DNA of 64,000 nt from Microbacterium murale (lineage in GTDB: Bacteria > Actinomycetota > Actinomycetes > Actinomycetales > Microbacteriaceae): contig NZ_JAUSXK010000001.1 of the NCBI RefSeq assembly GCF_030815955.1, positions 2,232,001-2,296,000 on the forward strand, written 5' to 3'. The position numbers and the translations under genes are program-made. The notes under the pieces are model-generated. The model made no database searches and was not told the origin of the DNA. It saw only the letters and a list, made by a program, of their open reading frames with translations. Shown piece by piece: positions 39,450 through 64,000 of the stretch; the stretch's first letter is position 1, and every line of letters begins with the position of its first letter.

Positions 39450-42400
39450 ATGAAGGCGCTGTCATGGTTGCGCGCGAAACCGAAGACGGCCGCATCTGTT
39501 GCGGGCGTCACTGCGGCGGTCGTCGCGATCGGCACCCTCGCCTTCGCGTATGAGGGCAATCCCACCACGAAAGTCGACCTGAACGACGGCGGCGTCTGGA
39601 TCACGAAGTCGTCGGCGCTGATGGTCGGCCACTTCAACAATGAGTCCACTCTTCTCGATGGCGGACTGCGCACGACCGGCGAGGGGTTCGACATCCTGCA
39701 GGATGCGTCGACCGTGCTCGTCACCGATCGCAGCAACGCGACCCTCACCGCCGTCGACTCCGCCCGCGTCTCGCTGGGCGACAGCACCACCATCCCCGGA
39801 TCGGCGAAGGTCGCGCTCGGCGCGCAGACTGCGGCGATCCTCGACACCGAGTCCGGCGACCTCTGGGTCGTGCCGGTCAAGGGCATCTCGGGATTCGAGC
39901 TGCAGGGAACCGACCCGCTCGTCGAACTGGGCAAGAACTCCGACGTGACCGTGGGGCAGGACGGCACGGTGTACGCCGTCTCCGGTGAGAACGCCGAAGT
40001 GGTCACCATCCCCGTCGACAACGAGGGTGAGGCCCTCGAGCCGCAGTCCGCCGCTCTGGGTGAGTTGGACGCCTCGATCGCTCCTTCCATCACGGCGGTC
40101 GGCGCGACCCCGGTCGTGCTGTCACCGTCCGACAGCGCCGTGATGACTCCTGGTGGGTTCCGCACCGAGATCCCCGAGGCCGACTCCGCCGTGCTGCAGT
40201 ACTCGTCTGCGGCGACGGACGCGGTGACCGTCGCGACGGCGTCCCAGCTGATCGATGTGCCGCTCGACGGCGGCGAGCCCCAGGCGACGAGCACGGGCGG
40301 CGACGGCACCCCGGCCGCCCCGGTGTCCCTGCTCGGCTGCAGCTACGGCGCGTGGTCCGGCACCGGCACTTTCGTTCGCGAATGCCCCGGTGACGGCGAC
40401 GACATCAATGAAGAGGTTCCCGGTGCCGAATCCTCGGCGTCGCTGACCTTCCGTGTGAATCGCGACGTCATCATCCTCAACGACTCCGTCGGCGGTGCAG
40501 CGTGGCTCACCGACGAGAGTCTTCAGCAGGTCGACAACTGGGATGACCTGACACCGCCCGAGGGTGAGACCGAGAACGAAGAGGACACCACGCAGGAGAC
40601 CGTGGAGACCACGCTTCCCGTGCGCACGGACGTGAACACGCCCCCCGTCGCGGAGGACGACGAGTTCGGCGTGCGTCCAGGTCAGACCACGGCTCTGCCC
40701 GTGCTCGACAACGACAACGACCCCGACGGCGACGTGCTGGTCGCCGCGATCGCCGAGCAGCAGCCGTCGATCGGAACGGTGCAGCCGATCTACGACGGCG
40801 GCTCGCTCCAGATCGCGGTCGGAGAAGATGCCTCGGGCGCAGCGTCCTTCTCATACGAGGTGAACGACGGTCGCGGCGGTACGGACACCGCGAATGCGAA
40901 TCTCACGGTCAAGGACTGGGACACCAACACCGCCCCCAAGCCGAAGCGCACGACGGCACTGGCCATCGAGACCGGCGGAACGATCTCCTACAACATCCTC
41001 CCGGACTGGATCGACCCCGAAGGCGACGACATCTACCTGCGCGGCGTCGTCGCCGCACCGGGTGACGAGGTCGAGTTCACGACGGACGGTCAGATCACCT
41101 ACCGCGCCACGGCGAGCCTGCAGGGGCGCAAGGAAGTGGAGATCTCGGTCGCCGACGCCCTCGGCGAGGTCGCGACGGGCACGCTCGTGCTCGACGTTCG
41201 TCAAGCCGGGTCGACGCTGCCGAAGACGAACGCCGATCACGTGATGACCCGCGTCGGCGAGCAGGTGACGGTCTCACCGCTCGCGAACGACTCGAGCTCG
41301 GGCCAAGAGCAACTGCGCCTGACCAGGGTGAACGGCGACGAGACCCCCGGTGCGACGATCCAGCCCGACTATCCGAACAAGACCTTCACCTTCAGCGCCC
41401 CGGCGCCCGGTGTCTACTACGTCCTGTACGAGGTCGCGGCGGGTCCGAACGGAGTGCCGGGAATCGTCCGCATCGACGTCGCCGATGCGAGCGAACAGGA
41501 TCTGCCGCCGGTCGCCGTACGCGACGTGGCGCTGCTGCCCACAGGCGGCGAGGTGCTTCTGGGCGTGCTGAACAATGACACCGACCCGTCGGGCGGCATC
41601 CTCGTGGTCCAGTCGGTGACCGTGGAACCGGGCAGCGGCATCTCGGTCTCGGTGCTCAACCACGAGTCGCTGCGCATCGGCGATCAGGGCGCGCTCGACG
41701 AGCCGGTGAAGATCAGCTACCGCATCTCGAACGGCTCCAAGACGGCCGAGGGCGAGGTGGTCGTCATCCCGATCCCCGCGCCGGAAAAGATCCTCCCGCC
41801 GGTCACAACGCCGGATCAAGCGGTCGTACGCGTCGGCGATGTCGTGACCATCCCCGTGCTCGAGAACGACACGAGTCCGGTCGGCGACGCCTTGAGCCTC
41901 GAGCCAGAGCTGGTCGAGCCGTTCGTCGATCCGGAGGACGGCGAGATCTTCGTCTCGCAGGATACGGTGCGCTTCAAGGCCGGTGATGAGGCGAAGACCG
42001 TCTACGCCACGTATGAGGTCTCAGACACTCGCGGGAACAAGGTCGGCGGGTACATCACGATCCAGATCGTGCCCGTCCAGGATGAGAACGCGGCTCCCCG
42101 CCCGCAGGACATCACGACACGTGTGCTGAGCGGCAATGTCGCGAACATCGCGGTGCCCTTGGATGGCATCGATGAAGACGGTGACTCCGTCGAGCTGATC
42201 GGCCTCGCGTCGAACCCGAAGAAGGGTCGCATCACCGAGGTCGCGCAGAACTACTTCGTGTACGAGGCGTACGCCGCCTCCTCGGGCGTCGACACGTTCT
42301 CGTATCGCGTGCGCGACCGTCTCGGACAGGAGGGCACGGCGACGATCCGTGTCGGCGTCGCGCCAGCCGAGGAGATGAACCAGGCACCGTATGCGGTGAA

Positions 42401-45542: not shown

Positions 45543-45587
45543 AGCCGCGCCAGCGGAATTCAACAGAACACAGAGGAACGAACTGAA

Positions 45588-46559
45588 ATGACCATGACCC
45601 CCGAACAGGCCTCCTGGTTCCAGGGCACCTTCACCCGCCTGGTCGACAACATCGACAAGGCGGTGCAGGGCAAGCGTGAGATCGTCAGCCTGGTGCTGGC
45701 ATCCATGCTGGCCGAGGGCCACGTGCTCCTGGAAGACGCACCGGGCACGGGAAAGACGAGCCTCGCAAAGGCGCTGGCCGCGACGGTGCAGGGCACGAGC
45801 TCGCGCATCCAGTTCACGCCCGACCTACTGCCCTCCGACGTCACGGGCGTCACGATCTACGACCAGCAGGCGCACAAGTTCGAGTTCCACAAGGGCCCGA
45901 TCTTCTCGTCGATCGTGCTCGCGGACGAGATCAACCGTGCCTCACCGAAGACGCAGTCGGCACTGCTCGAGGTCATGGAGGAGTCGAAGGTCACGGTCGA
46001 CGGCGTCACGCACGAAGCCGGCCGCCCGTTCCTCGTGATCGCGACGCAGAACCCCATCGAGCAGGCGGGAACGTACAAGCTCCCCGAGGCGCAGCTCGAC
46101 CGCTTCCTCATCAAGACGTCCATCGGATACCCCGACCTCGCGGTGACCGAGAGCATCCTCGCCGGAGCATCCGACCGCAACCCCTCATCGAGCCTGTCCG
46201 CGATGATCACCACCGGGGCCGTCGCCGACATGGCCGACCTCGCGGCGACCGCGCATGTCGAACCGGCCGTCCTGCGCTACGTCGCCGAGCTCGCCGAGGC
46301 GACTCGCCACGACAGCGGTGTGAGGCTCGGAGTGTCGGTGCGCGGTGCGATCGCGATCATCCGCCTCGCGAAGGTGTGGGCAGCCGTCCACGGGCGCCAC
46401 TACGTTCTGCCCGATGACATCAAGGCGCTCGTCGCTCCGGCGTGGCAGCACCGCCTGCTGCTCGACGCCGAGGCGGAGTTCGCCGGCACCACCGCGGACG
46501 TCGTCCTCAACCGTGTGCTCGAGACGATCGCGGCACCTCAGGCGCGAACGGCGGCTTGA
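45588..46559 (+). CDS. MoxR-family AAA+ ATPase
   Basis: 323 residues, AGAGGA ribosome site. Walker A is [15 protein letters not shown] (Lys56), Walker B/sensor block [23 protein letters not shown], then [22 protein letters not shown], the MoxR signature. MoxR ATPases act as chaperones that assemble or activate partner complexes, usually with a DUF58 protein encoded next door, as here. It starts 45 bases after the giant gene and overlaps the DUF58 start (TGATGA). Confidence 0.95.
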
Positions 46560-47818
46560 TGACCGCAGAGACGCTGAGCGCAGCGCCCACGACCGCTCGT
46601 GACGCCGGATGGCGAGACATCCTGGCGGTCATCGGCGCGCGCATCGGCGCTCGTCTGCAGAAGATCGCGAGTGTCGTCCGACCGATGGCCTGGGTGCTCA
46701 TGGGCATGGCGATCGTGTTCTGGATATTCGGCGCGAGCCTGGGCTGGAGCGAACTGAGCCTCACCGCCGTCATCGTCGCGCTCACCCTGATGCTGTGCGC
46801 ATTGTTCCTGATCGGACGCACCGAGTACGACGTCACCCTCGACCTCGCCCGCACGCGGGTCGTCGTCGGCGAACGCGCCGTCGGAGCGCTCACGCTGTCC
46901 AACCCCGGCAACCGCGCCATCCTGCCGTCCCGCGTCGTGCTGCCCGTCGGCAGCGGGCGCGGCGAGTTCGGCATTCAGCGTCTCGCGCCTGGCGACAAGG
47001 CCGAGGAGCTCTTCGCCATCCCCACACAACGCCGTGGCGTCGTCAAAGTGGGGCCGGTCAGCGTCGTGCGCGGCGACCCGTTCGGTCTGTTCGAGCGCGC
47101 ACATCGGCGCGATGACCCCGTCGATCTCTTCGTCCACCCTCAGACCGTGCTGTTCGACGGCCAGTCCCTCGGATTCCTCCGCGATCTCGAGGGACTTCCC
47201 GCCGCCGATCTCTCGCGCGACGACGTCTCCTTCCACGCGCTCAACGAGTACCAGCCCGGCGACGACCTGCGTCACGTGCACTGGCGCTCCACGGCCCGAA
47301 CCGGGGTCATGATGGTGCGGCAGTACGAGGAGACCCGTCGTTCGCACTTCGTCATCGGGCTCTCCCGCTCGAGCGGCGACTATGCGAGCTCCGAGGACTT
47401 CGAACTCGGGATCTCGGTGGCAGGCTCGGTCGGTCTGCGTGCGATCCGCGACTCTCAGCGTGTCGACGTGCGTGTGCAGGGGCGTGAGCTGCGTGCGGGC
47501 ACCGGCAAGCAGCTGCTCGATTCGCTCGCCGCCGTGGAGGCCAGCAAACCGCGCGAGGGCGGCATCTCCGAGCTCAGCGGAGTGATCGCCGCCACGATGC
47601 CGTTGGCGAGCGTCGTGGTGCTCGTATGCGGCACGAAGGTGCCGAACGAAGACCTTCGACTCGCCTGTGCACGGCTCCCGTTCGGTGCGCGTGTGATCGC
47701 CATCATCGCCGATGCCACCGCCGAGGCCCCCGCCCTTCGCCGCATCGGAGACGCCGATGTCGTCAGCGTCGGCGCCCTGAAACAGATTCCCCTGGCACTT
47801 CAGAAGGTTCTCGCATGA
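46559..47818 (+). CDS. DUF58 domain-containing protein
   Basis: 419 residues. Two N-terminal membrane helices (about 40-85), a beta-rich segment, and the DUF58 core FHALNEYQPGDDLRHVHWRSTARTGVMMVRQYEETRR, followed by a vWA-like domain. DUF58 proteins work with MoxR ATPases and transglutaminase-like membrane proteins. The conserved order MoxR-DUF58-TGase is known across many bacteria, but the biochemical role is still unclear. Start chosen at the ATG overlapping the MoxR stop; the end overlaps the TGase gene by 4 bases. Confidence 0.92.
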   Translation: MTAETLSAAPTTARDAGWRDILAVIGARIGARLQKIASVVRPMAWVLMGMAIVFWIFGASLGWSELSLTAVIVALTLMLCALFLIGRTEYDVTLDLARTRVVVGERAVGALTLSNPGNRAILPSRVVLPVGSGRGEFGIQRLAPGDKAEELFAIPTQRRGVVKVGPVSVVRGDPFGLFERAHRRDDPVDLFVHPQTVLFDGQSLGFLRDLEGLPAADLSRDDVSFHALNEYQPGDDLRHVHWRSTARTGVMMVRQYEETRRSHFVIGLSRSSGDYASSEDFELGISVAGSVGLRAIRDSQRVDVRVQGRELRAGTGKQLLDSLAAVEASKPREGGISELSGVIAATMPLASVVVLVCGTKVPNEDLRLACARLPFGARVIAIIADATAEAPALRRIGDADVVSVGALKQIPLALQKVLA

Positions 47819-50220
47819 GCGCGTCTGCCGCGTCGGCGTTCCCCGCATCGTCGACCATTCCTGTGCGCCGCTGGATCCTCGACATCGCAGCCGTCATCGT
47901 GCTGCTGGGGGTCTCGGCGGCCGGGTTCTGGCCCACCTTCGCAGGCCCGAGCTATCTCCCCGCGGCCATCGGCGGTGGCCTCCTCGGCATCGCGATCGCT
48001 GCAGTCGCCGCATGGCGACGGTGGGGGATCCTCATCATCGCCGGGCTCACCGTGCTGGCGTACTTCGTCTTCGGTGGCGCGTTCGCACTGCCGCATACCG
48101 CGATCGTCGGCGTCATCCCGTCGCTCGACACGTTGCAGCAGCTCGCGGTCGGGGTCATCACCTCCTGGAAGCAGCTGCTCACGACCGTGGCACCGGTCTC
48201 CGGCGCTGACGGCTTCCTCATCGTGCCGTTCCTGCTCATGCTGATCGTGGCGGTGATCACGGCATCCCTCGCCCTTCGCCTCGCTCATCCCGCATGGGCG
48301 TTGATCCCGGCTGCGCTGCTGCTCGCGGTCGTCATCGCCCTCGGCACTCCAGAGCCGGCGGTCCCCGTCATCCAGGGCACGGTCTTCGCGCTGGCGAGCA
48401 TCTCCTGGTTGGCGGTGCGCCAGATCTGGGCCCCGCAGAATGCTGCCGTGTCGGTGGGCGAGATCGACCCGGCCCGTGCGAACCACATGCGGATGAGGAG
48501 ACTGCTCTCCGGGGCGGTCGTGCTCGCCGTCGCTGCAGGAGTGGGCGTGTCGACGAGCGCGTTCACCGCGCCCACCCAAGTGCGTCACGTGCTGCGCGAC
48601 ACGATCATCCCACCGTTCAACGTGCGCGATTATCCCAGCGCCCTGCAGTCGTTCCGCGGTCACGTGCGCGACGACGGTGAGAGCACGTTGTTCACGGTGC
48701 GCGGACTTCCGGAGGGTGCCCGCATCCGCCTCGCCGCCATGGATGAGTTCGACGGTCAGGTCATCAATGTCGTCGACGGCGGGCCTGGATCATCCAGTGC
48801 GTTCACTCCGATCCGCTCGAACATGTCCCCCGACGTCGAGGGCCTGCCGGTGACCCTGAAGGTCGACATCGACGCCTACTCGGGTGTCTGGGTGCCGCAG
48901 GCGGGTCTCGTCTCCGAGTTCCAGTTCTCGGGGGACGACGCCGATGCGCTGCGCCGAGACACCTTCTACAGCACGGGATCCGGCACCGCGGTCGCCACAT
49001 CCGGCCTCCGCAAGGGCGACAGCTACACCGTGCAGACGACGCTGCCTGCCGAGTACAGCGACGAACAGCTCGCCGAGGCGGAGTTCGGCACTGTGCGGCT
49101 GCCGAAGAACGACAACGTGCCGGAGGAGTTCACCGCCCTCGCCGCCGAGATCGTGTCGGAGGCGGAGACGCCCATCGAGCACGTGCAGGCGCTGGCGACC
49201 TTCCTCTCCGAAGACGGGTTCTTCAGCCACGGACTCCAGGGCGAGGTCATCTCACGATCCGGCCACACCTCGGAGCGCATCTCCACCCTCATCGGCGGCG
49301 ATCAGATGATCGGCGATGACGAGCAGTACGCCGTCACGATGGCACTGCTCGCCGGTGAGCTCGGCATCCCTGCGCGCGTCGTGATGGGCTTCTACCCCGA
49401 TGAGGAGCAGGACGGCGCGGCCGCCTTCACGGCGACCGGCGACAACATCCACGCCTGGGTCGAGGTCAACTTCGACGGTTTCGGCTGGGTGCCGTTCGAC
49501 CCGACACCCCCTGAGGACCAGGTCCCCAACGACCAGAACACCAAACCGCGCGCCGATCCCAAGCCACAGGTGCTGCAACCGCCGCCTCCTCCGCAGGAAC
49601 CGGTCGACCTTCCTCCGACGCTGCCCGACGACCGTGAGGCCGAGGACGAGTCGCTCAACATCGGCGGCATCATCCTCGCGATCCTCGCCATCGGCGGACT
49701 GTCCCTGGCCATCATCGCCCTGCTCGCCTCGCCGTTCATCGTCATCGGTGCGTGGAAGGCCTCCAGGCGCCGGTCGCGTCGAACAGCCGAACGGACGGCG
49801 GACCGGATCGCCGGCGGATGGGACGAGCTCACGGACCGTGCGATCGACTACGGAGCGCGACTCGCACCGGGTGCGACTCGTGGTGAAGAGGCAGTGCTCG
49901 TCGCCGATTCACTCGCCGTGCCGACCGTGACGGCACTCGCCGATCGGGCCGACGCCGAGGTCTTCGGCCCTCGCGACCCGAGCGCAGAAGACGTCGACGC
50001 CTTCTGGAAGGAGGTCGACGAGATCGTCGTCGGACTCGGCAGCGAAGCGGGGTTCTGGAAGAGGACCAGGGCGCGACTGAGCCTGCGTTCGCTGCTCGTC
50101 GGCTCCGCCCTTTCGACAGGATTCCAGGGACTCAAGACCGCGGCAGCCGCGCGCGTCCGGCGAGAACCTGGCACCATCAAGAACAGCACTTCCGATGCAC
50201 CCGAGAGTGAGACCCCATGA
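47815..50220 (+). CDS. TgpA-like membrane protein with transglutaminase fold lacking the catalytic cysteine
   Basis: 801 residues. About seven N-terminal helices (to residue 250), an extracytoplasmic region, a further helix near 620-645 and a cytoplasmic tail. The transglutaminase-like core is recognisable: ALLAGELGIPARVVMGF, His546 in NIHAWVEVNFDGFGWVPFD and Asp562 in FDPTPP. The nucleophile position, normally G-x-C-E-(Q/H)-(F/Y)-A, reads GDDEQYA, so Cys is replaced by Asp502 while His and Asp remain. The replacement needs more than one base change, so a sequencing slip is unlikely. It may be a binding rather than cross-linking or peptidase domain. Downstream KPQVLQPPPPPQEP forms a proline linker. 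Confidence 0.88.
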   Translation: MSASAASAFPASSTIPVRRWILDIAAVIVLLGVSAAGFWPTFAGPSYLPAAIGGGLLGIAIAAVAAWRRWGILIIAGLTVLAYFVFGGAFALPHTAIVGVIPSLDTLQQLAVGVITSWKQLLTTVAPVSGADGFLIVPFLLMLIVAVITASLALRLAHPAWALIPAALLLAVVIALGTPEPAVPVIQGTVFALASISWLAVRQIWAPQNAAVSVGEIDPARANHMRMRRLLSGAVVLAVAAGVGVSTSAFTAPTQVRHVLRDTIIPPFNVRDYPSALQSFRGHVRDDGESTLFTVRGLPEGARIRLAAMDEFDGQVINVVDGGPGSSSAFTPIRSNMSPDVEGLPVTLKVDIDAYSGVWVPQAGLVSEFQFSGDDADALRRDTFYSTGSGTAVATSGLRKGDSYTVQTTLPAEYSDEQLAEAEFGTVRLPKNDNVPEEFTALAAEIVSEAETPIEHVQALATFLSEDGFFSHGLQGEVISRSGHTSERISTLIGGDQMIGDDEQYAVTMALLAGELGIPARVVMGFYPDEEQDGAAAFTATGDNIHAWVEVNFDGFGWVPFDPTPPEDQVPNDQNTKPRADPKPQVLQPPPPPQEPVDLPPTLPDDREAEDESLNIGGIILAILAIGGLSLAIIALLASPFIVIGAWKASRRRSRRTAERTADRIAGGWDELTDRAIDYGARLAPGATRGEEAVLVADSLAVPTVTALADRADAEVFGPRDPSAEDVDAFWKEVDEIVVGLGSEAGFWKRTRARLSLRSLLVGSALSTGFQGLKTAAAARVRREPGTIKNSTSDAPESETP

Positions 50221-51590: not shown

Positions 51591-52402
51591 CGGCTCCACT
51601 GATCGTGTCGGCCGGGTCGTCGACGCACACCGGCATGCGCCGCTCCCTGAACGAGGATGCGATGCTCGCGAGCGCGCCGATCTTCATCGTCGCCGACGGA
51701 ATGGGGGGACACGAGGCGGGCGAGCGCGCAAGCGCTGCGGTGGTCGAGGAGTTCGCGCGATTCGCCGGGCGAGAGAGCCTGGAGCTCGACGATGTGCTCG
51801 ATGCTCTCAGCCGCTCGCGCCTGGCCGTCGATGCGCTGTCCGTCATGGCCACCGGGCGTGCGGGAACGACGCTCAGCGGTGTCGTTCTCGCGGATGTCGA
51901 TGGCACCGGCTATTGGCTCAGCTTCAACATCGGCGACTCGCGCACGTATCGGCTGTCGCGTGGTGAGCTCGAGCAGATCAGCGTCGATCACTCCGTCGTT
52001 CAGGAGCTCATAGAGACCGGGGAACTCAGCCTCGCCGATGCGGCCTCCGATCACCGACGCAACATCATCACCCGCGCCATCGGTGCCGGCAGCACCGGCG
52101 ATGCCGATTTCTGGATGTTCCCGGCAGAGCTGGGCGACCGCATCCTGATCTGCTCGGACGGGCTCTCCTCCGAGGTACCGGATGCACAGATCCAGGAGAT
52201 ACTGACGGTCGAGTCCGACCCCCAGACGGCTGCTGCGACGCTGGTCGGCGAAGCCGTCACCGCCGGAGGCAGGGACAACATCACGGTCGTGGTCGTCGAC
52301 GCGGTGTTCGTCGCGTCGCGCCCTGGCATGCAGGTACAGGCAGACGACGACTTCGATGAGAACACCCGGCCTCGAGAGGCCGCCGCAGGAGGGATCCGCT
52401 GA
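51587..52402 (+). CDS. PP2C-family Ser/Thr protein phosphatase (PstP/PrpC-like)
   Basis: 271 residues. Metal-binding motifs are intact: RRSLNEDAMLA (Asp24), VADGMGGHEAGERAS (Asp37, Gly38), ICSDGLSSEV and GGRDNITVVVVD. The catalytic domain is the whole protein; unlike PstP of mycobacteria there is no transmembrane or extracellular part. It should reverse phosphorylation by the kinase encoded two genes downstream, as with the PrpC/PrkC and PstP/PknB pairs. It overlaps RDD-FHA by 4 bases and the next FHA gene by one base. Confidence 0.94.
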   Translation: MTAPLIVSAGSSTHTGMRRSLNEDAMLASAPIFIVADGMGGHEAGERASAAVVEEFARFAGRESLELDDVLDALSRSRLAVDALSVMATGRAGTTLSGVVLADVDGTGYWLSFNIGDSRTYRLSRGELEQISVDHSVVQELIETGELSLADAASDHRRNIITRAIGAGSTGDADFWMFPAELGDRILICSDGLSSEVPDAQIQEILTVESDPQTAAATLVGEAVTAGGRDNITVVVVDAVFVASRPGMQVQADDDFDENTRPREAAAGGIR

Positions 52403-53763
52403 TGCAGACGACCTACCGACCCGGGGACTGGTACGTGCTCGTGGCACCCGGAGCGCTCATCGCACTCTCGCCGGATGCGCCTGAGGACCTCGTCGCGACA
52501 CTGTGGGAGCGGCAGCAGGCAGGTGGCGACCTCGCGGCTGTGATCGACGCGCTCACCGAACAGGCTTCAGGATCATTCGCGGCGATGCTGCCCTTCGCGG
52601 CCGTCGTGCTGGAAGGGGCGAATGCGAGGATCGCCGTGCGCGGCGACGTGGAAGTCCAGATCACGGGTCCTCACGGCAGCGAGAGTTTCACCGGCACGAA
52701 CGTCACCACGTGGAGCGAGCGGTTCGCACCGAATGCGAATCGGATCGCCGTGAGCGCGGCCGCTGACGACTCCGCGCCCCTGCCGATCACGGGCGGCATC
52801 GTGCGTGCCGCGAACGTCAGCGCCGAGATCGAGCCGGCCGATGTGGCAGAGCCGGATGCTGCACTGAAGACGGACTCCGTCGTCGAAGGCGCGGCCGGGC
52901 CGTTCACGTCTGCGCCTCTCGTGACGCCTCCTGCGGTGCCCGTCGTCGCGCCGGCCCCGGAGCCTGAGGCAGAGCCCCCGGCTCCGCAGCCTGCAGCCGA
53001 AGAGTCGCCGGCCTCGGAACCTTCCGAGGTCGAGGAGCCGACCGCGGAAGAGGCTGTCGGGGCATCTGCGACCGAGCCTCCGACAGAGCAGATCCCAGAG
53101 GTCCCCGCTCCCGTCGATGGTGCGGTCGACGACTCGGTCGACGGGGCGACACTGCTGCCGGCCGAGATGTCGGATTCGACAGACATCGACGAGTTCGAGC
53201 AGCTGTTCGGAGCGACGATCGCTTCACCCAGCGCGATCGCGCAGCCTGCCCCCGCTCCACCGGCGCCCCCTGCTCCTTTCGGTATCGTGACGCCGGCCGA
53301 CGGGGGCGACGGCGACCACGACGGGGCGACGATCTCGGTGGCCGAGGCGCGTGCGCTCCGCAAGCAGGCACCGACCGCTGCCCCGGACGCCCCGACCGCT
53401 GTCCTTCCCGTGGTCGCCGGCGGGACCGGCAGGGTGCGGGTGTCGACGGGTCAGGTCGTGACTCTCGACCGCACGGTGATCATCGGCCGCCGCCCGCGTT
53501 CCACGCGCGCCAGCGGCGCTGATCTGCCGCATCTGATCGCTGTGGAGAGCCCGCAGCAGGACATCTCACGCAGTCACCTCGAGATCCGGCCGGAAGGCGA
53601 CACGGTCGTCGTCGTCGACCTGCACACCACGAACGGGTCGACGCTGCTGCGGCCTGGCGCCGATCCGATGCGCCTGCACCCCGGAGAGCAGACCCTCGTA
53701 CTCTCGGCGGACGTCGTCGACCTCGGTGACGGAGTGACCGTCACGTTCGAGGATCTTCCGTGA
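52402..53763 (+). CDS. FHA-domain protein with long acidic linker
   Basis: 453 residues. The N-terminal 130 residues (YRPGDWYVLVAPGALIALSPDAPEDLVATLWE) form a domain I do not recognise. Residues 140-360 are an acidic Pro/Ala/Glu-rich linker. The C-terminal FHA domain has IIGRRPRS, ISRSHLEIRPEG and DLHTTNGSTLL. The linker carries two copies of a D-G-A-T-hydrophobic motif, DGATLLPAE (Thr250) and DGATISVAE (Thr310), plus LFGATIAS, reminiscent of the threonines phosphorylated in GarA/FhaA-type proteins. It could bind its own phosphorylated linker or that of its neighbours. There is no membrane segment. Confidence 0.88.
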   Translation: MQTTYRPGDWYVLVAPGALIALSPDAPEDLVATLWERQQAGGDLAAVIDALTEQASGSFAAMLPFAAVVLEGANARIAVRGDVEVQITGPHGSESFTGTNVTTWSERFAPNANRIAVSAAADDSAPLPITGGIVRAANVSAEIEPADVAEPDAALKTDSVVEGAAGPFTSAPLVTPPAVPVVAPAPEPEAEPPAPQPAAEESPASEPSEVEEPTAEEAVGASATEPPTEQIPEVPAPVDGAVDDSVDGATLLPAEMSDSTDIDEFEQLFGATIASPSAIAQPAPAPPAPPAPFGIVTPADGGDGDHDGATISVAEARALRKQAPTAAPDAPTAVLPVVAGGTGRVRVSTGQVVTLDRTVIIGRRPRSTRASGADLPHLIAVESPQQDISRSHLEIRPEGDTVVVVDLHTTNGSTLLRPGADPMRLHPGEQTLVLSADVVDLGDGVTVTFEDLP

Positions 53764-55409
53764 GCAGACCCCCTTCGCCGCCTCCGGAGCTCCCCGGGTT
53801 CACCTACGTCGGGCCATTGGGCACCGGCGGCTTCGCCGATGTCTTCATCTACGAGCAGCAGATGCCCAAGCGCAAGGTGGCGGTGAAGGTGCTGCTCGCG
53901 GAGAGGATCTCCAGCAGCGCGGCCCAGGAGTTCACAGACGAGGCCAACGTCATGGCCATGCTGTCGACGCATCCGGCCATCGTCACGATCTATCACGCCG
54001 GTGTCGCAGCCGACGGTCGTCCGTATCTGGTGATGGAGTACTGCCCGAGGCCCAACCTCCAGGTCCGCGCCCGCAAAGAGCCGTTCTCGGTCGCAGAGGC
54101 ATTGCGCGTCGGCATCCAGGTCGCAGGCGCGGTCGAGACCGCGCATCGCGCCGGCGTGCTGCACCGCGACATCAAGCCGGCGAACATCCTGGTCACCGAG
54201 TACAACAGGCCGGCGCTCACCGACTTCGGCATCGCGTCGACGACGGGTGCGGTGACGGAGGCGACCGGGATGTCCATCCCTTGGTCGCCGCCGGAGTTCT
54301 TCGCCGATCCGCCGCAGAGCGGACCGCGCTCCGATGTCTTCGCACTCGGCGCAACGCTCTACACCCTGCTCGCCGGTCGCTCGCCGTTCGAACGCCCTGG
54401 CGAACGCAACTCCGGAGCCGACCTGATCGAGCGCATCGAGCGTGCACCGCTGCAGCCGCTGGCGCGACCGGATTCGCCTGCGAGCCTGCAACGGGCGCTC
54501 GAACGGGCGATGTCGAAGAACCCGGATGCGCGCTACCCCAGCGCGGTGGCGTTCGCGCGGGCGCTGCAGAAGGTGCAGATCGAGTTGACCCACTCGGTCA
54601 CGCCGATCGACATCATCGACGACCATCCGATCGCGGAGGATCTCGAGGACGAGGCCGACGGTCTCACCCGGGTGCGCGACATCGTCAGCATAGAACCGGA
54701 TGCCGGCGCCACGCGCCCGTCCGCGACGACCAGGCCGTTCAGCAACCCGGAGCCGGCGCCCGAGTCGACGTCCGGCCCGCGTTTCTCCCCGAGTCGACCG
54801 ATCGAGCCCTCCGCCGTGGAGGACACAGTCCTCCGGGTGGCGCCGGCCGCAGCTGCCCCCGCACCTGTCGACGACGATCGAACCCTGCTGCGAGCGCCGC
54901 GAACTCTCTCTCCCGACGCGGCGGCCGCGTCGCCGGTGCTGCATGCGCGAGCCGAGCCCACCGCCGAGAGCACGGAGGCACCGGGGGACAAGCGCCGATC
55001 CAGAGTGGGACTGTGGGTGACGGTGGCAGCGATCGCCGCGGTGCTTATCGGGGGCACGGTCGTCGGAATCAACGTCGTCTCCGGCGGCGAAGCCGACCCT
55101 GATCCGATCGTGACTCAGGACGTGGTCGATCCGAAGGATCCGGTCTCCGACGCCGTGCCGCGGGTGGAAGAACTCACCGGCACGCGCGCCGGTACGGCGA
55201 TCACGTTCAGCTGGAGCAACCCCGCGCCCGAGGATGGCGACCTGTACCTGTGGAACACCGTCGATCTCGCCGGACCCGGAGCCACCGAGACCACCGAGAC
55301 GACGACCATGACGTTCCAGGGGTCGGCGACGGGGCAGGTGTGCGTGGACGTGATGCTGCGTCGCGGCGACGGAAGGGCATCCGAACCCGTGCGGGGGTGC
55401 GTCGAATGA
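53760..55409 (+). CDS. Transmembrane Ser/Thr protein kinase with extracellular FN3-like domain
   Basis: 549 residues from a GTG overlapping the previous stop. Kinase domain 10-275: glycine loop GPLGTGGFADVFIYEQQ, Lys43 (VAVKVL), catalytic HRDIKPANILV (Asp137) and TDFGIAS (Asp155). A long juxtamembrane linker follows with threonine motifs VEDTVLRV (Thr356) and DDDRTLLRA (Thr375). One membrane helix spans about 416-441, and the outer domain of 100 residues looks like a single FN3 fold (AGTAITFSWSNPAPEDGDLYLW) with Cys528 and Cys547 placed to form a disulfide. It differs from PknB, which has PASTA repeats outside, so it probably senses something other than peptidoglycan fragments. This is the counterpart of Pkb2 in the PFNA cluster. 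Confidence 0.93.
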   Translation: MSRPPSPPPELPGFTYVGPLGTGGFADVFIYEQQMPKRKVAVKVLLAERISSSAAQEFTDEANVMAMLSTHPAIVTIYHAGVAADGRPYLVMEYCPRPNLQVRARKEPFSVAEALRVGIQVAGAVETAHRAGVLHRDIKPANILVTEYNRPALTDFGIASTTGAVTEATGMSIPWSPPEFFADPPQSGPRSDVFALGATLYTLLAGRSPFERPGERNSGADLIERIERAPLQPLARPDSPASLQRALERAMSKNPDARYPSAVAFARALQKVQIELTHSVTPIDIIDDHPIAEDLEDEADGLTRVRDIVSIEPDAGATRPSATTRPFSNPEPAPESTSGPRFSPSRPIEPSAVEDTVLRVAPAAAAPAPVDDDRTLLRAPRTLSPDAAAASPVLHARAEPTAESTEAPGDKRRSRVGLWVTVAAIAAVLIGGTVVGINVVSGGEADPDPIVTQDVVDPKDPVSDAVPRVEELTGTRAGTAITFSWSNPAPEDGDLYLWNTVDLAGPGATETTETTTMTFQGSATGQVCVDVMLRRGDGRASEPVRGCVE

Positions 55410-56134
55410 GCACCGACCAGGTCACGGTCGAGTTCGCGGGCGAGTACTTCCCGGTCGAAGGAGAGGGACGCTTCACCGTCGGTCGCGAAGGCGATCTCGC
55501 AATCGACGAGAACCTCTTCCTGCACCGCCACTTCCTCGAGATCAGCCATGATTCCGGATTGTGGTGGCTGTCGAACATCGGCAGCAGGCTCACAGCGACG
55601 GTCACCGATTCCGCCGGCGGAGTGCAGGCCTGGCTCGCCCCCGGCGCGCGCCTGCCGTTGGTGTTCCAACGCACGACGGTCGTGTTCACCGCCGGACCGA
55701 CCACGTATGAGCTCGTCGTGCACGCGGCCGAGCCGACATTCCGCCCCACCCGCCCCGAGAGCGCCGACGGCGACTCCACGATCGGCGACGTCCCGCTTAC
55801 GGTGAGCCAACGCCAGCTGATCCTCGCGCTGGCCGAGCCTCAACTGCTGCGAGACGGCACAGGCATGAGCGAGATCCCCACTTCCGTGAGCGCGGCGAAG
55901 CGATTGGGCTGGACGATCACCCGGTTCAACCGGAAGCTCGACAACGTCTGCGACAAGCTCGACCGCATCGGCGTGCCCGGTATGCGTGGCGGACAGCGCA
56001 GCTTCGCGACCAATCGACGGGGGCGGCTCGTGGAATACGCCATCGCGTCGCGACTGGTGACCAGAACCGATCTCGCGCTGCTGGACCTGCGCACGGAAGA
56101 GGAACGCACGGATGGATCGAGCGCCGATGACTGA
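55406..56134 (+). CDS. FHA-domain protein with C-terminal winged-helix-like region
   Basis: 242 residues from ATG overlapping the kinase stop. Residues 1-105 form an FHA-like fold (GRFTVGREGDLAID, LHRHFLEIS, WWLSNIGSRL). A DGDSTIGDV segment (Thr125) follows, with the same acidic-Thr-hydrophobic pattern seen in the neighbours. Residues 130-240 are helical and resemble a winged helix: LTVSQRQLILALAEPQLL, TSVSAAKRLGWTITRFNRKLDNVCDKL, then a basic QRSFATNRRGRLVEYAIASRL wing. This would link phosphothreonine signalling to DNA or protein binding; no DNA target is evident. The 3' end overlaps the next gene. Confidence 0.75.
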   Translation: MSTDQVTVEFAGEYFPVEGEGRFTVGREGDLAIDENLFLHRHFLEISHDSGLWWLSNIGSRLTATVTDSAGGVQAWLAPGARLPLVFQRTTVVFTAGPTTYELVVHAAEPTFRPTRPESADGDSTIGDVPLTVSQRQLILALAEPQLLRDGTGMSEIPTSVSAAKRLGWTITRFNRKLDNVCDKLDRIGVPGMRGGQRSFATNRRGRLVEYAIASRLVTRTDLALLDLRTEEERTDGSSADD

Positions 56135-56921
56135 CGATCAGAACGAAGGGCCGCAGCTCGTCCCGCGCCCCGTCGACGCCGCGGTCGCGGCGGAGTGGCG
56201 GACGTTCTTCAGCGGCGGCGGTGTCTTCTCGCTGCCGGCGGCGACCGAGGTCAACCGGCGAAAGCGCGCCAGGAACACGGTCTTCCTGACAGTGCTGCTC
56301 CTGCTGGCTGTCGCGGCCGTCGCCGTGGCCGGTGTGCTTCTCGCCACGGGATCGGGACGCGCCCTGACGTATGCCCTCCTCGCCGTGCTGCTCATCGTGA
56401 CCGTCGTGGCCACCGCGAGGATCGCCGGCATCCGTCGCGCGCTGAACGCGGTGCGCGACTCTCCACAGGAGTACATCGCGGTGTCCCGCGACGGCATGCG
56501 CTTCGCCGGGATCGAGTTCCCGTGGACGGCGATCGTCGGCGGGCTCATCATCGACGAGCGGGGTGCCCAGTACTCCGGGCTCAAGCGGCTCACCGCCAAG
56601 ATCATGCTCTCGGCCGGTCACCCGCAGGTCGAGATGCTTCTCGGCGTCCGCGAGGGCACGGTGCGCGATCACCGTGCGCACGCGCCCGGTGCGGTTGGTC
56701 GCGTCTTCTTCGTCTCGATGGGTTCGGGTGGACCGCGGATCCCGCTGCAGCACGCGATCGACGACGACAGCATCAACGCACTCGCCACGGCAGCCAGGGT
56801 GAGCGCGGCGGATGCCGATGTGCCGATCATCGTCTCGCGCGATCCGGCCGTCATCCACCCGACGATCATGGCGATCTGGCGGGGGAAGCGCCCCACGGCA
56901 GGAAAGGAATCGAATGAGTGA
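56112..56921 (+). CDS. Two-helix membrane protein, unknown function
   Basis: 269 residues from ATG 56112, which has AGAGGAA seven bases upstream (ATG 56127 is a weaker alternative). Two adjacent membrane helices (about 55-80 and 84-106) follow a cytoplasmic N-terminus. The remainder starts SPQEYIAVSRDGMRFAGIEFPWTAIVGGLIID, a beta-rich pattern like a small PH or bPH domain, and ends cytoplasmic. I know no family. It lies inside the signalling operon, overlapping both neighbours. Confidence 0.72.
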   Translation: MDRAPMTDDQNEGPQLVPRPVDAAVAAEWRTFFSGGGVFSLPAATEVNRRKRARNTVFLTVLLLLAVAAVAVAGVLLATGSGRALTYALLAVLLIVTVVATARIAGIRRALNAVRDSPQEYIAVSRDGMRFAGIEFPWTAIVGGLIIDERGAQYSGLKRLTAKIMLSAGHPQVEMLLGVREGTVRDHRAHAPGAVGRVFFVSMGSGGPRIPLQHAIDDDSINALATAARVSAADADVPIIVSRDPAVIHPTIMAIWRGKRPTAGKESNE

Positions 56922-57246: not shown

Positions 57247-57266
57247 TGCGGCACTGCCGAATCTCG

Positions 57267-57971
57267 TCAGCAGTCGTCGGCGAGCGGTGACGGCGGGGCG
57301 ACTTCTGTCTCGCCCCAGTCGCTGAACTCGACTTCCATAGTGCCGGCGGCATCCGCACGCACCAGAGCGGTGGGCAACGGGGGACCATCCCTGGAGACGG
57401 TCAGCGCTCCGAGGGTGCCCTCCGCGCCGAGGACGATGTTCGCCGTGCCCTCTCCGGCGGCGGCGATCGCACTCGCGTCCGCGCTGAATTCGGCGACGGT
57501 CCGCACCGGGTCGAGCAGCGTGCGCCATCGGGCCACCGCGGGGTCGTCCACGCCCATGCAGGCGTAGGCACCGTCCGCCGCCTCACCCGTAGGAGAGGGC
57601 AGTACGTAGGCGACGTCATCGGTCAGCACGATTCGGGTGCTCACTCCGTTGACGGTGAACTCGGCCTCCACCGAACCGCCACGTCCGGACACCACGAACG
57701 TCATCATCCGGTCCGCCGTGTCCACGAACACGCCGGTCATGGTCCCCCCGTGTTCTGCGCGCATGGCGGCGATGACAGCGGCCAGAGCGTCCTCCGTGCC
57801 CAGCAGGGTCACCCCGTTGCCGACGTCGTCGCCCCAGTCCTCACCCAGATCGAGGTGGGTCGGTGTGGCGACGGGTGAGACGGGTGCTCCCGAGCATCCC
57901 GGCACGAGCAGGAGCGCGAGCGTCAACGGGATGATGACGCGTCGAAGCGCGTCACTCCTCGTCTTCGGCAT
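57267..57971 (-). CDS. Putative lipoprotein
   Basis: 234 residues. Signal with lipobox LLVPGC (Cys26), then a beta-rich domain (GVFVDTADRMMTFVVSGRGGSVEAEFTVNGVSTRIVLTDDVAYVLP), vaguely like LppX/LprG-type lipoproteins, and a final Cys. The function is unknown. Its start overlaps the end of the upstream minus-strand gene by 20 bases, so the two are co-transcribed. It is convergent with the small helical protein gene (20-base gap), and no terminator hairpin is apparent between them. Confidence 0.75.
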   Translation of the reverse strand: MPKTRSDALRRVIIPLTLALLLVPGCSGAPVSPVATPTHLDLGEDWGDDVGNGVTLLGTEDALAAVIAAMRAEHGGTMTGVFVDTADRMMTFVVSGRGGSVEAEFTVNGVSTRIVLTDDVAYVLPSPTGEAADGAYACMGVDDPAVARWRTLLDPVRTVAEFSADASAIAAAGEGTANIVLGAEGTLGALTVSRDGPPLPTALVRADAAGTMEVEFSDWGETEVAPPSPLADDC

Positions 57972-58623
57972 CCGTCACGCACCCCGCTACGGCTCCCTGC
58001 TGGTCGAGCGCCGTTCGGTCGAGCGAGGTCGAGGCCTTCTCATTCCCCTCGGCAGGCCGCACCAGAAGACATGACCGCTCGTCGATCAGTCCGGCGGCGA
58101 GCGGAAGCCACAGCTCGGTTCCCGTCACGCGCTGCGACACGTCCACTGCATCGCCGGCCGGGCCATCGATCACGATCACCTGGTACGGCACATCCGGGCC
58201 GCTCCAGCTCGCACGCACCACGTTCTCGGTGGATTCGATCTGCAGATCTGCGGCGACATCCTTTCCGCCGAAGACCCCCAGGACCACGAAGACGGCGAGG
58301 GCGATCAGTGCGATCAACGTGGTGCCGGCCGACACGAGGAACGCGGGATGCAGCCAGAGCGGACGGCGCTTCGCTGCAGAAGACTCCTCTTCCAGCTCCG
58401 GCAGCACGCTGCCGGAGATCTCCAGCGGACGGATCGGTCCGGACATCGCGTCCAGGCTCGGCCGGGCCGAAGACCATCCGATCTGCCCTGCCATCGCCGC
58501 TGGGGCTGCTGAGGGGGCCGCGGATGACCATGACACTGGAGTGGTCGTGATCATCGAGGGTTGCCCGGCGACCACGTCCGTCGCGCTGCTGCGCTCTCGG
58601 CGGGTGCGGGGGACATCGCTCAT
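57952..58623 (-). CDS. Single-pass membrane protein with extracellular FN3-like domain
   Basis: 223 residues. The cytoplasmic N-terminal part (1-90) is rich in Ser, Thr, Pro and Ala and includes a LEISGSVLPELEEESSAAKRR acidic stretch. One membrane helix (about 95-117, LVSAGTTLIALIALAVFVVLG) precedes a 100-residue outer domain. The outer domain has the same plan as that of the kinase: a VVRASWSGPDVPYQVIVI FN3-like strand pair and two cysteines, the second in a closing AGCV (kinase: RGCV). It is kinase-like in topology but has no kinase domain, so it may be a co-receptor or decoy. It is divergent from the frameshifted gene at 58699. Confidence 0.75.
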   Translation of the reverse strand: MSDVPRTRRERSSATDVVAGQPSMITTTPVSWSSAAPSAAPAAMAGQIGWSSARPSLDAMSGPIRPLEISGSVLPELEEESSAAKRRPLWLHPAFLVSAGTTLIALIALAVFVVLGVFGGKDVAADLQIESTENVVRASWSGPDVPYQVIVIDGPAGDAVDVSQRVTGTELWLPLAAGLIDERSCLLVRPAEGNEKASTSLDRTALDQQGAVAGCVTDAEDEE

Positions 58624-58698
58624 CGAAGGACTGCGGATTCTCTCTGGTGATCGGTCACGTCTATCCTAGTCGTGATCCGACCGGAGACTTGGAGTCGA

Positions 58699-59764
58699 AT
58701 GCGTTCGTCGTTGCCCTGGCGTCGCGGCGCAGCCGCGGTACTCGCACTGGTGCTGCCAGTCGCTTCCGCCATGCTCGCCGCGCAGGCCGAGGAGGAAGAC
58801 GAAGGACCGCCACCCGACGGCGCCGTCATGATCCCCTACCAGGAGGCCGGTGAGATCCGCCCCGGTGAGGGCTGGTTGATCGACTGCGCCGCGCTGGGAG
58901 TCGTCGAAGGCGTGACAATCACGTGCGATGCTGAGTCCATCACTCTCTCCGCCGCATACGACCCGGACTGGGGAGAGCATCCGCTGTCCGTACGGATGGT
59001 CTCGAAGCACACCGATCTCCAGGTCGGGTACGCGTTGCGCATGGAGCCTCCGCCGGCACCGGAGATCACCATGGATCGGCTGGACATGCCCATCGAGGTC
59101 GGAGAGCAGGCGATGCTGCCGCTGTCCGCACTCGGCATAGAGTGCGAGATGTGCTCCGACGACGGCGGCGCGATCATCGAGGTCGGCAAGCTGCCGCACG
59201 GCGTCGATGCGGGCGTGAGCGCCACGCACCTCTCCGTCAGAGGGTCTGTCGTCGGAGACGCCGAGATTCCGCTGCGGGTGACCGACGATGCCGGTCAGAC
59301 CGGCGACGTGAAACTGACGGTGTCGTTCGTGAAGGCCGCGGCGCTCGCGACGGCCGATGCGTCAGCGGACGAAGAGCAGCCGGTCGGCGCACTGCACGTC
59401 GTCAGCAGCGCATCGGAGTGGGATCTCGCCGCACTGTCATGGGGTGAGGACAGGACGATCGTATGCGCCGAGCCCCGACCGGCCGGACTCACCTGTGCTC
59501 CGGACGGGCGCCGCGGTGCTCGCCGCCGACAGCCCGCCGCCCTCGCAGTTCATGTTCCGCGTGGTCACCGCAGACGGATCGCAGTCCTGGGGCAGCGTGA
59601 CGATCGGTGAGTCACCCGATGACGACGGCCTCGCGGCCCCCGAATGGGCCCGCAAGGCGCCACTGCACATGGTCTATCCGCCTTCGGGCGATGACGCACC
59701 GGGTGAAGGCGGATCCCTTCTGGGACCACTGACACTCCTGTTGGAAGGGATACCCGGATCATGA
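58699..59764 (+). pseudogene. Secreted Ig-like/beta-rich protein gene interrupted by a +1 frameshift
   Basis: From ATG 58699 (GGAG upstream) a signal peptide (MRSSLPWRRGAAAVLALVLP to about residue 30) is followed by a beta-rich protein with several Cys (LIDCAAL, ITCDAES, IECEMCSDD). The frame runs to a stop at 59610, but from about 59510 the coding sense lies in the next frame: AAVLAADSPPPSQFMFRVVTADGS to a stop at 59762-59764. That stop overlaps the EssC-like start by ATGA, as expected of the intact gene. Removing one G from GGG at 59506-59508 restores a single frame of about 354 residues (CAPDGAAVLAAD). The break could be real decay, a sequencing error, or programmed shifting. Confidence 0.78.
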
Positions 59765-62700: not shown

Positions 62701-64000
62701 AGCCGGTCCGGGCGCACGACCGCCGTGCGCACACTGCTCGCGCAGGCGGTGCAGCGCTTCACGCCGGCCGATCTGCACGTGTACGCGGTCGACTACGGCA
62801 CCGGTGCACTGCTGCCCTTCGTGGCTGCTCCGCACACCGGCGCGGTCATCACGCCACAGGATTCCGGACGCCTTCCGCGCCTGCTCGCGCGGATGAGCGA
62901 GGAGCTCTCTCGTCGGCAGTCGGTGATCGCCGCGGCAGGCGTCGGCAGCATCGGAGAGCAGAGGGCACAGGCCGACGCGCGTGACGCCCTCTCGTACGCG
63001 CTGTTCGTGATCGACGGATGGGAGCGGTTGTCCGCATCGTTGAGCGCGGATGACATGGTGACGGTTCGCGATCATGTGCTGCGGTTGCTGCGTGAAGGCC
63101 CGTCGTCCGGTATTCGCGTGATCATCACCGCCGATCGATCGGTTCCCAGCGACAAGGTGGCCAGCTTCATCGACACCCGGTACGCGCTGCCGATGCGCGA
63201 CGTCAACGACTACCGTGGCGCGGGGATCATGATCCGGGAGGTGCCGGCGTCGATTCCGCCCGGACGCGTGATGTTCGGCTCATCAGGAACCGAGGCGCAG
63301 CTCGCGGTGCTCTCCACCGACGTCACCGGCGAAGGGCAGACCGCGGCGGTGCGGGCGATCGTGGAGTATGTGTCGGCGCACTACGCGCAGTTCCCGCAGT
63401 TGGCCGAGTTGCCGCAGGCGTTCCGGGTCGATCCGCTGCCGCAGCGGATCGGACTCAGCGAGACGGCGCAGCTTCCGCTTCACGAGGGCGCTTCCGCGGA
63501 GTTCCCGGTGGTCGCCGTCGGAGGCGATCGCCTGTCGCGGATCACAGTCGCCTGGCCGGAGGTCGGCGGCTTCGTCGTCACCGGTGATCGCCGCAGCGGC
63601 AAGACCCACGCCCTTGCGGTCATCGCGCATCAGCTCGCGTGGCACGGCACCCGCATCGTCGTGGCCGTCGCACGCGACGGCTCGGTGCTCTCTGACGTCG
63701 CCCGCAGCCACGGGATGCCGGTGCTGACCCCGCAATCCGCCGATGAAGAACTGAGCGCGGCGCTCGCCGAAGGCGATGCACCGATCACGATCGTCGTCGA
63801 TGACAGCGAGGGCATCCGTGATTCGAAGCTCGACCGAGCTCTCGGCGCGGCGCGCGCGCATGCGCGTTTCGTGGTGGGAGTCGGATCGGAGTCGGCCGGG
63901 TCGTCGATCACGGTCGCACTCACAGAAGCGAAGAAGGGCAGAGCGGGACTCCTCCTCTCGCCCACATCGACCATCATCGGCACACAGGTGTTCGGCGTGC
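59761..64000 (+). CDS. EssC/EccC-like FtsK/SpoIIIE-type secretion ATPase with FHA domain (3' end outside window)
   Basis: At least 1413 residues, open to the window end. N-terminal ubiquitin-like segment (1-75), FHA domain (about 80-175; LLIGRGPSATIRVADPHLAEEHAHITV), two membrane helices (about 231-252 and 254-275), a cytoplasmic linker and three ATPase domains. D1 is canonical: GTTGSGKS with Lys649, Walker B LMIVVDEF with Asp754/Glu755, and NFVLIDYKGGSAF plus VLATQRPS. D2 has GGSRSGRT (979-986), with Arg for the Walker lysine. D3 has GDRRSGKT (Lys1281). This order matches Firmicute EssC/YukBA rather than mycobacterial EccC, which lacks FHA. It is the motor of a type VII-like secretion system. 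No WXG100 substrate gene is in the window. Confidence 0.9.
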   Translation, partial: MSLRLTVADRPGGSHTESWLVKVDEATTVSEIGEALSVPVEIVAPGADPVAPFAKSMLRSGVVIPSRSSTVHPAGTTRLDFVAGPFAGESVAVVPGERLLIGRGPSATIRVADPHLAEEHAHITVTGGTSPEGIPLPLSARIELVASDGKLLVNGEADSSSADVVPADLVQLGSSVLRVGSAPASDADITVDELGARAFNRPSRIRPSQTPPSVTLPGDEPEEADASPLPWLSAIVPVVLGVTLAIVFQRPVMLLMAAASPIMVVGSFIANKKIARRKGERTQVEWIAEIESARERIAATVRQQRLTSWYHHLDPVYIRDVVTRPLSRLWERRRSESDALKVRVGVADVRLDVRFEGGPQKERREERHVGVSPSPVAVDLADGPVGVAGPADVAEGVVRSMLTALTALRSPRDLQVAVLCDREQEHAWSWVQWLPHAQPGVGPVALVGNTDLTRRERVRELGALLDVRMRIGRDRRIETESHVVLVVDGARRYRMLPGMVALLEHGSAYGIHVIAIDSDRSRLPEEATTVVVADPGDPLLGRVESGDAYHSPVLLDQVTVNYAEELARALSSIEHVRGVGDDATVPTSVRYTELLGIDLNDPQPIIDQWRVAPRQSFVVIGAGSEGECAVDIATDGPHALVAGTTGSGKSEFLQALVISLALANRPDALNFVLIDYKGGSAFADCARLPHTVGMVTNLDARETERALASLDAELKRRERVLRDDIGAKDVDAAWDKDADAAARLGLARLMIVVDEFAELKTELPDFINGLVRIARVGRSLGVNLVLATQRPSGVITPEMQSNINLRIALRVTDRADSTDVIGTPDAALISAATPGRGYMRAGLDAAPVVFQTARVAGLRIGHQRTTRVLPPAAKFEWQTVGLPPRFPAVEKAVHRPDQDDTDLRGLVQLATRAAAELGVERSPSPWLLPLPELLPLDRFDEDSAPEGAVVLGLVDVPSRQTQRPLLWHTHTDSHLLFFGGSRSGRTTAVRTLLAQAVQRFTPADLHVYAVDYGTGALLPFVAAPHTGAVITPQDSGRLPRLLARMSEELSRRQSVIAAAGVGSIGEQRAQADARDALSYALFVIDGWERLSASLSADDMVTVRDHVLRLLREGPSSGIRVIITADRSVPSDKVASFIDTRYALPMRDVNDYRGAGIMIREVPASIPPGRVMFGSSGTEAQLAVLSTDVTGEGQTAAVRAIVEYVSAHYAQFPQLAELPQAFRVDPLPQRIGLSETAQLPLHEGASAEFPVVAVGGDRLSRITVAWPEVGGFVVTGDRRSGKTHALAVIAHQLAWHGTRIVVAVARDGSVLSDVARSHGMPVLTPQSADEELSAALAEGDAPITIVVDDSEGIRDSKLDRALGAARAHARFVVGVGSESAGSSITVALTEAKKGRAGLLLSPTSTIIGTQVFGV

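Follow-up and report, generated by a model that had tools for sequence, protein, structure and literature searches.

Do the two halves of this locus, a block of envelope and kinase genes and the secretion-type ATPase encoded behind it, belong to one system? The stretch in question (hereafter the window) comprises 64,000 nucleotides of the Microbacterium murale contig NZ_JAUSXK010000001.1 (positions 2,232,001 to 2,296,000), from a genome of 4.11 Mb in a single contig. In it, 11 plus-strand genes between positions 39450 and 57246, overlapping or at most ~50 bases apart, lead from a giant surface protein to a small protein, and are followed by two minus-strand genes (m1 and m2), a secreted-protein gene (s) and the gene of an EccC/EssC-type ATPase (Table 1). 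An earlier reading made from the sequence alone had described this arrangement and likened its first part to the PFNA cluster of bifidobacteria (pkb2, fn3, aaa-atp, duf58, tgm). The open reading frame (ORF) listing and Pfam agree with both descriptions, all five PFNA gene types being present, with the one correction that gene s lies here in two frames.

On sequence grounds the locus is a type VII secretion locus: the type VII secretion system (T7SS) half is real, since WXG100 genes come after the ATPase gene, on the side where the sequence-only reading would have sought further T7SS parts. The reading that we favour, with a probability of about 0.68, is that the locus would encode an export machine working like T7SSd (Garrett, Higginson, Palmer 2024, PMC11217815), in which the envelope chassis is enlarged and threonine phosphorylation acts as a switch.

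Linkage of the block with EccC-type ATPases

All linkage counts are lower bounds among the matches listed, with few candidates scored per genome, and absences carry little weight. Among 150 Microbacteriaceae genomes, an EccC-type match was found in 129 and a giant (E <= 1e-40) in 125, and 60 of the 150 giants listed (56 of 107 genomes) lie within 30 kb of an EccC-type match, against 9.6 expected. For 248 genomes of the order (EccC-type matches at E <= 1e-30, residues 1-500 of the giant at E <= 1e-8) the corresponding figures are 231 and 139 genomes, and 43 of 139 typed giant rows (38 of 115 genomes) within 30 kb of a listed EccC, against 5.9 rows expected. These expectations are rough binomial estimates, assuming a genome size of 3.3 Mb and 3 or 2 ATPase loci each and treating relatives as independent; two second-piece EccC rows were dropped before the family count and eleven partial giant rows before the order count. 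Because both counts so exceed expectation, the block is no chance neighbour of the ATPase, and chance neighbourhood is rejected.

Linked genomes occur in families f12 (11/13), f6 (9/11), f9 (4/14), f1 (4/15), f18 (3/10), f3 (2/8), f4 (2/14), f10 (1/3), f5 (1/1) and f8 (1/1), with none in f14 (0/17), f20 (0/7) or f13 (0/1). Ten loci of the order were read, eight of them chosen because both matches lie near each other and two (f14 and f4) chosen as unlinked. In f12, f6, f9 and f18, the genes for the giant, MoxR, DUF58, TgpA, RDD-FHA, PP2C, FHA protein, kinase, x1 (the ninth gene of the block) and EccC follow one another on one strand; f10 has one swap in that order and f8 is rearranged. In f3 and f5, x1, giant, moxR, duf58, tgpA and EccC were seen, the upstream side lying outside the fetched stretch.

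A second sample was drawn with x1 as marker, from the best 80 of 553 relatives, and its loci are hence selected by the block. They come mostly from Microbacterium, and also from Oerskovia, Cryobacterium, Subtercola, Herbiconiux, Arthrobacter, Brachybacterium, Promicromonospora and others. Where 8.5 kb upstream was available (50 loci), kinase, FHA, PP2C and transglutaminase genes were each present in all 50, DUF58 in 48, RDD-FHA in 47 and MoxR in 45; where 8.5 kb downstream was available (64 loci), EccC lies 3' of x1 in 41, and WXG100 is present as well in 34. Across the phylum, x1 was found in 12 of 296 genomes, with a listed EccC within 11 kb in five of the 12, two of these outside the class (G522, on the opposite strand, and G595).

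The window's own ATPase lineage occurs in 17 genomes (best rows 46-100% identity; one in two pieces). In stretches reaching up to 20 kb before and 15 kb behind this ATPase, a WXG100 gene is present in 16 of the 17 (G087 being without) and the effector N-terminus in 12, and the block lies beside the ATPase in eight: G000 (this genome), G106, G056, G049, G004, G087, G050 and G017. The linkage is not confined to this lineage. Twenty of the 90 family giants without a listed EccC neighbour were fetched from few-contig genomes, and in eight of them an EccC-type ATPase follows the block (a short one, 852 to 1054 aa in five read), while eight have an x1 gene without ATPase, and four neither. The idea that only the window's lineage matters is rejected; EccC-type ATPases in general carry the linkage. 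In the eight loci with the shorter ATPase, it ends a run of giant, MoxR, DUF58, transglutaminase and zinc-ribbon FHA genes, and an alanine-dehydrogenase-like gene (by eye) comes next in several of those read.

What lies behind the block appears to vary at a single site. A dehydrogenase gene serves as far-side marker in 23 of the best 80 of 553 x1 loci. In 14 of them (11 Microbacterium, 2 Microbacteriaceae, 1 Actinomycetota metagenome-assembled genome) it follows x1 at 0.5 to 2.8 kb and EccC is missing; in 8 Microbacterium loci it stands at 7 to 10 kb, with EccC in between; and in L126 it stands at 5.7 kb, with an effector-like frame and no EccC. In the window it is 17.8 kb from x1. Among named Microbacterium, x1 stays at 67-84% identity, while the EccC behind it is 28-34% identical to the window's (best local match) except in L093 and L106 (80%) and in the L094 fragment (70%). 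A tree built from 63 EccC rows places the window, L093 and L106 in their own clade, fully supported and on a long stem; the method was a quick one and many branches are long, so that this split alone is used. The simplest reading of these comparisons is that the translocase module would have been exchanged behind a fixed block, and that the window's ATPase is, as judged from its sequence, an exchanged and divergent form with a degenerate FHA domain, the exchange perhaps being the cause of the divergence. In L126 and L127 (the latter a short contig), x1 is followed by the effector N-terminus and the stretch is free of EccC, as cargo without a nearby translocase. A minus-strand frame similar to the window's resolvase-like gene, which lies between its T7 module and the dehydrogenase, is present in all five module-less loci read.

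Proteins of the block and of the T7 module

The coordinates of all genes, including those in the next 11 kb past the window edge, are given in Table 1.

Table 1. Genes of the locus. Positions past 64000 extend the window numbering.
Feature	Position	Strand	Evidence or remark
Giant surface protein, 2030 aa	39450..45542	+	Pfam Big_9 x7, fn3 x3; N-terminal hydrophobic segment by eye
MoxR AAA+ ATPase	45588..46559	+	Pfam AAA_3 1.2e-62
DUF58 protein	46559..47818	+	Pfam DUF58 7.6e-11
TgpA-like membrane transglutaminase	47815..50220	+	Pfam Transglut_core 3.2e-18, TgpA_N 1.5e-10
RDD membrane protein, C-terminal FHA	50217..51590	+	Pfam RDD 2.2e-16; FHA 20.1 bits, slightly under cut-off 20.7; S..H core present
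PP2C protein phosphatase	51587..52402	+	Pfam PP2C_2 6.5e-12
FHA protein	52402..53763	+	Pfam FHA 24.5 bits; S..H core present
Hanks-type Ser/Thr kinase	53760..55409	+	Pfam Pkinase 1.6e-38; catalytic motifs present; 1 hydrophobic segment by eye
x1, 242 aa	55406..56134	+	no Pfam match; FHA-like part (non-canonical core, by eye) and conserved C-terminal region (alignment)
x2	56112..56921	+	no family above cut-off; 2 hydrophobic stretches by eye
x3, 110 aa	56914..57246	+	occurs near this T7 module in other genera too
m1	57267..57971	-	lipoprotein-like by eye; in 14/17 genomes with the window's EccC lineage
m2, membrane protein	57952..58623	-	1 hydrophobic segment by eye; in 17/17 of these genomes
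s, secreted-protein gene	58672..59764	+	two frames; in 13/17 of these genomes
EccC/EssC-type ATPase, 1446 aa	59761..~64101	+	N-terminal domain, degenerate FHA, FtsK domains; runs past the window edge at 64000
Zinc-ribbon and FHA gene	64187-64852		
WXG100	64963-65274		Pfam 70.6 bits (cut-off 27.3)
WXG100	65330-65788		Pfam 43.2 bits (cut-off 27.3)
WXG100-like, third	65785-66078		17.2 bits, under cut-off 27.3
Effector, 1220 aa	66082-69744		WXG100_2 domain 8.4e-12
Two genes	between effector and PoNi gene		no family above cut-off
PoNi-type immunity gene	71132-71893		4.9e-19 and 1.6e-10
One gene without family, then DUF6630 gene	3' of PoNi gene		
Resolvase-like gene	73372-74025	-	weak resolvase N-domain match, 22.2 bits (cut-off 23.3)
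Lactate/malate dehydrogenase	far side of module, after resolvase-like gene		

The giant is related by sequence comparison to the bifidobacterial FN3 protein; its residues 1-480 are 93% identical to a Microbacterium murale giant, 92% to that of M. profundi and 94% to two more proteins. Its Ig-like domains are assigned by Pfam, and no C-terminal transmembrane segment was noticed on inspection by eye. The signalling genes of the block are well preserved: across the window locus and its relatives, catalytic motifs are present in 74 to 75 of 76 kinase ORFs, and the S..H core in 78 of 80 RDD-FHA ORFs and in all 76 ORFs of the FHA protein. The C-terminal region of x1 is perhaps a winged helix, judged by eye. 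Gene s forms a single frame in three relatives (G106, L093 and L106), and its split in the window reflects a frameshift or a sequencing error. Elsewhere in the window, positions 24001-26000 have a pronounced AT skew (-0.265 in the composition table).

The ATPase matches Pfam FtsK_SpoIIIE (4.9e-50) and, among solved structures, YukB best (2.3e-79); EssC is its best NCBIfam family (547.8 bits, under the cut-off of 778.4), ahead of EccCa (390.1, likewise under cut-off). Its FHA domain scores 18 bits in Pfam, under the cut-off of 20.7, and is recognized by fold as well. The N-terminus (residues ~1-86) is ordered as strand-strand-helix-strand in a model of the L128 protein (mean pLDDT 79), the window's model being poorer (67). 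It yields weak, sub-cut-off Pfam matches to OTU1_UBXL (0.024) and to TmoB (0.069), the latter a family that we take to have a ubiquitin-like fold, plus non-ubiquitin-like ones. Its profile matches only a designed miniprotein (E 0.62), and its fold searches were filled by FHA domains. Judging from the model, this part might be a fused ubiquitin-like domain. Pfam names no separate ubiquitin-like gene among the locus proteins scanned (small ORFs scanned in part).

It is possible, from sequence likeness, that the effector carries a PoNe-type nuclease part, given its PoNi neighbour, a weak match (E 0.077) to 9waq VP14465, which is presumably PoNe, and a motif likeness seen by eye; in NCBIfam it has only low-complexity-like matches.

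A proposed switched export machine and its rivals

If the block and the T7 module work together like a T7SSd, the EccC/EssC-type ATPase would carry the WXG100 proteins and a WXG100_2-type polymorphic toxin (perhaps DNA-cutting and antibacterial) over the membrane, with immunity supplied by genes behind the ATPase. Such a cargo seems likelier than surface proteins in general, which the sequence-only reading had proposed. The N-terminally anchored Ig/FN3 giant would form or tether the wall-crossing part, as proposed for TsdI, and MoxR, DUF58 and the TgpA-like transglutaminase may mature or install that part. The membrane kinase and PP2C would set threonine phosphorylation, to be read by the FHA proteins so that assembly or export is switched. 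The Microbacterium block would then be a chassis with one site behind it, where different translocase-and-cargo modules replace one another or are lacking.

Several observations weigh against this reading. The block lies outside the fetched stretches in 9 of the 17 genomes with the window's ATPase lineage; two of these stretches (G072, G111) end at contig ends, and in G079, G080 and G135 the ATPase and the closest giant listed share a contig but are 0.57 to 0.69 Mb apart. Among the named loci, 23 of 64 have the block without EccC within ~10 kb, so the block may have a use of its own. No listed giant is near a listed EccC in f14 (0/18 rows) or f20 (0/9), the f14 and f4 loci read have no EccC in 40 kb, and WXG100 was found in none of the 20 fetched giant stretches. 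The FHA domain of the window's ATPase is without the usual Ser of the phosphothreonine site S..H, as are those of L093 and L106, and x1 keeps the FHA Ser in only 16 of 86 ORFs. Two earlier suggestions are upheld in part: linkage of the kinase/MoxR block and the EssC-like gene in relatives stands as one operon-like run in several families and fails in the unlinked groups just listed, and the tie between the halves through shared FHA domains is weak for the window's ATPase and stronger for related EccC ORFs, 43 of 46 of which retain the S..H core (the third miss being a cut ORF).

The main rival, which we hold to be unlikely, is that the locus contains two separate systems. One would be an operon for envelope or adhesion functions, PFNA-like and served by a kinase circuit of its own; the other would be a T7 module (m1, m2, s, EccC, zinc-ribbon FHA, WXG100 and toxin) that landed behind it, is self-sufficient and does not need the block. 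This rival draws on the nine window-lineage genomes with the T7 module and no block in the fetched stretches, on the 14 named loci where the dehydrogenase follows the block directly, and on the f4 locus, the single bifidobacterial one read. Against this, the eight linked genomes of the window's lineage show four arrangements (block on the same strand upstream or downstream, or on the opposite strand on either side), which argue for selection on closeness, and elsewhere the x1 gene abuts or overlaps an EccC gene of the same strand. The nine unlinked genomes, moreover, all hold at least one giant somewhere, though 125 of the 150 family genomes do.

That the EccC-type ATPase serves the block itself, exporting or placing the giant and other wall proteins, with toxin cargo added later in some lineages, is quite improbable: the eight fetched family loci in which giant, MoxR, DUF58 and transglutaminase genes precede a short EccC would suit it, as would the lack of WXG100 in all 20, whereas the giant's ordinary N-terminal hydrophobic segment fits Sec, and WXG100 genes stand behind EccC in five of the eight linked order loci (f12, f8, f18, f10 and f5).

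Returning to the phosphorylation-switched export machine, we put forward tentatively, at somewhat less than even odds, its extension beyond this family: the PFNA block may be the envelope chassis of a T7SS widespread in Actinomycetota, with the FN3 giant as wall conduit, MoxR-DUF58-transglutaminase as assembly factor and the translocase as a plug-in that can be exchanged or lost. If so, bifidobacterial FN3 would be a secretion part that uses a distant ATPase or was reused after ATPase loss. Apart from this extension, the locus supplies a secretion system described so far by its gene lists with the recurrent MoxR-DUF58-transglutaminase trio and a complete kinase, phosphatase and FHA set, and it offers one testable reading both for PFNA operon function and for the part with which non-mycobacterial type VII systems cross the wall. 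Species of a single genus in which this block is accompanied by no translocase, by one or by a different one amount to a natural experiment.

Comparison with known type VII systems and the PFNA operon

With T7SSa and ESX-4 the locus shares EccC and adjoining WXG100 genes. EccB and EccD, which the sequence-only reading had named as possible downstream genes, were not found there. EccB has no match in this genome and matches in 2 of 22 genomes with the ATPase lineage or the operon, a search in which none of 14 control genomes matched either, so that it has no positive control. EccD exceeds the cut-off in 3 of the 22 and occurs here only at contig position 282620, beside another EccC. At contig positions 282620-287804, a second EccC-like gene (1344-aa frame) with EccD directly before it forms a separate ESX-type locus, and a further WXG100 gene lies at contig position 519083. 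T7SSb has the components EssA, EssB, EssC and EsaA. The window's ATPase resembles this type in its best-scoring family, EssC, and its best solved relative, YukB, whereas the kinase has kept its motifs here and is a pseudokinase there; EssB/YukC was found in none of the 22 genomes, the Bacillus subtilis control matching. Since EccB, a local EccD and EssB/YukC were not found, the locus is neither T7SSa nor T7SSb as defined, and both are rejected in their plain form.

The PFNA operon, studied in bifidobacteria as a host-sensing operon, consists of genes for a kinase, an FN3 giant, an AAA-ATPase, DUF58 and a transglutaminase, with prpC and fha in some species (PMC8430577, PMC6803598, as far as their accessible text goes). 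Every one of these five is in the window; the locus departs from the operon described in that they adjoin genes for an EccC translocase and WXG100 proteins and that the kinase comes after the trio. The f4 genome, in which relatives of kinase, giant, MoxR, DUF58 and transglutaminase form one run, has a giant whose named relatives are Bifidobacterium proteins, including one of B. saguini, which the accessible text of PMC8430577 reports as one of the species with a full set of eight PFNA genes. The same portions do not contain 'secretion' or 'FtsK' (PMC8430577 and PMC6803598) or 'WXG' (PMC8430577), and a literature search over titles and abstract openings, subscription papers lying outside its scope, returned no publication joining the PFNA operon with a T7SS.

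MoxR, DUF58 and transglutaminase genes form triads elsewhere too, the same three genes in the same order as in the window, and we know of none tied to a secretion ATPase. The arrangement is called frequent in the available part of PMC6803598.

The closest known system is T7SSd, known from Olsenella and Bifidobacterium, which in the main text of PMC11217815 comprises a kinase, WXG100, TsdH, an Ig giant and an FHA ATPase with a kept phosphothreonine site, with toxin genes near. The joining of such a block to a type VII-like ATPase, of which the sequence-only reading knew no description, is therefore not wholly new; MoxR, DUF58, transglutaminase and PFNA, and any word beginning with Microbacteri-, are absent from that text (taken without supplements and figures). 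Both systems, as far as that text describes the T7SSd, belong to Actinomycetota and combine an EccC/EssC-type FHA ATPase, a membrane Ser/Thr kinase (its membrane segment seen here by eye), WXG100 proteins and an Ig-rich giant; no separate ubiquitin-like gene is named at the T7SSd locus, and here Pfam names none among the proteins scanned, though the ATPase N-terminus might be such a domain. They differ, by description rather than by reference sequences, in the ATPase FHA domain, degenerate in the window, and perhaps in the giant, in which no C-terminal transmembrane segment was noticed here by eye, the T7SSd envelope protein having a signal peptide and such a segment. The locus is thus close to T7SSd, with MoxR, DUF58, transglutaminase, PP2C, RDD-FHA, FHA protein and x1 recurring in its block as the difference.

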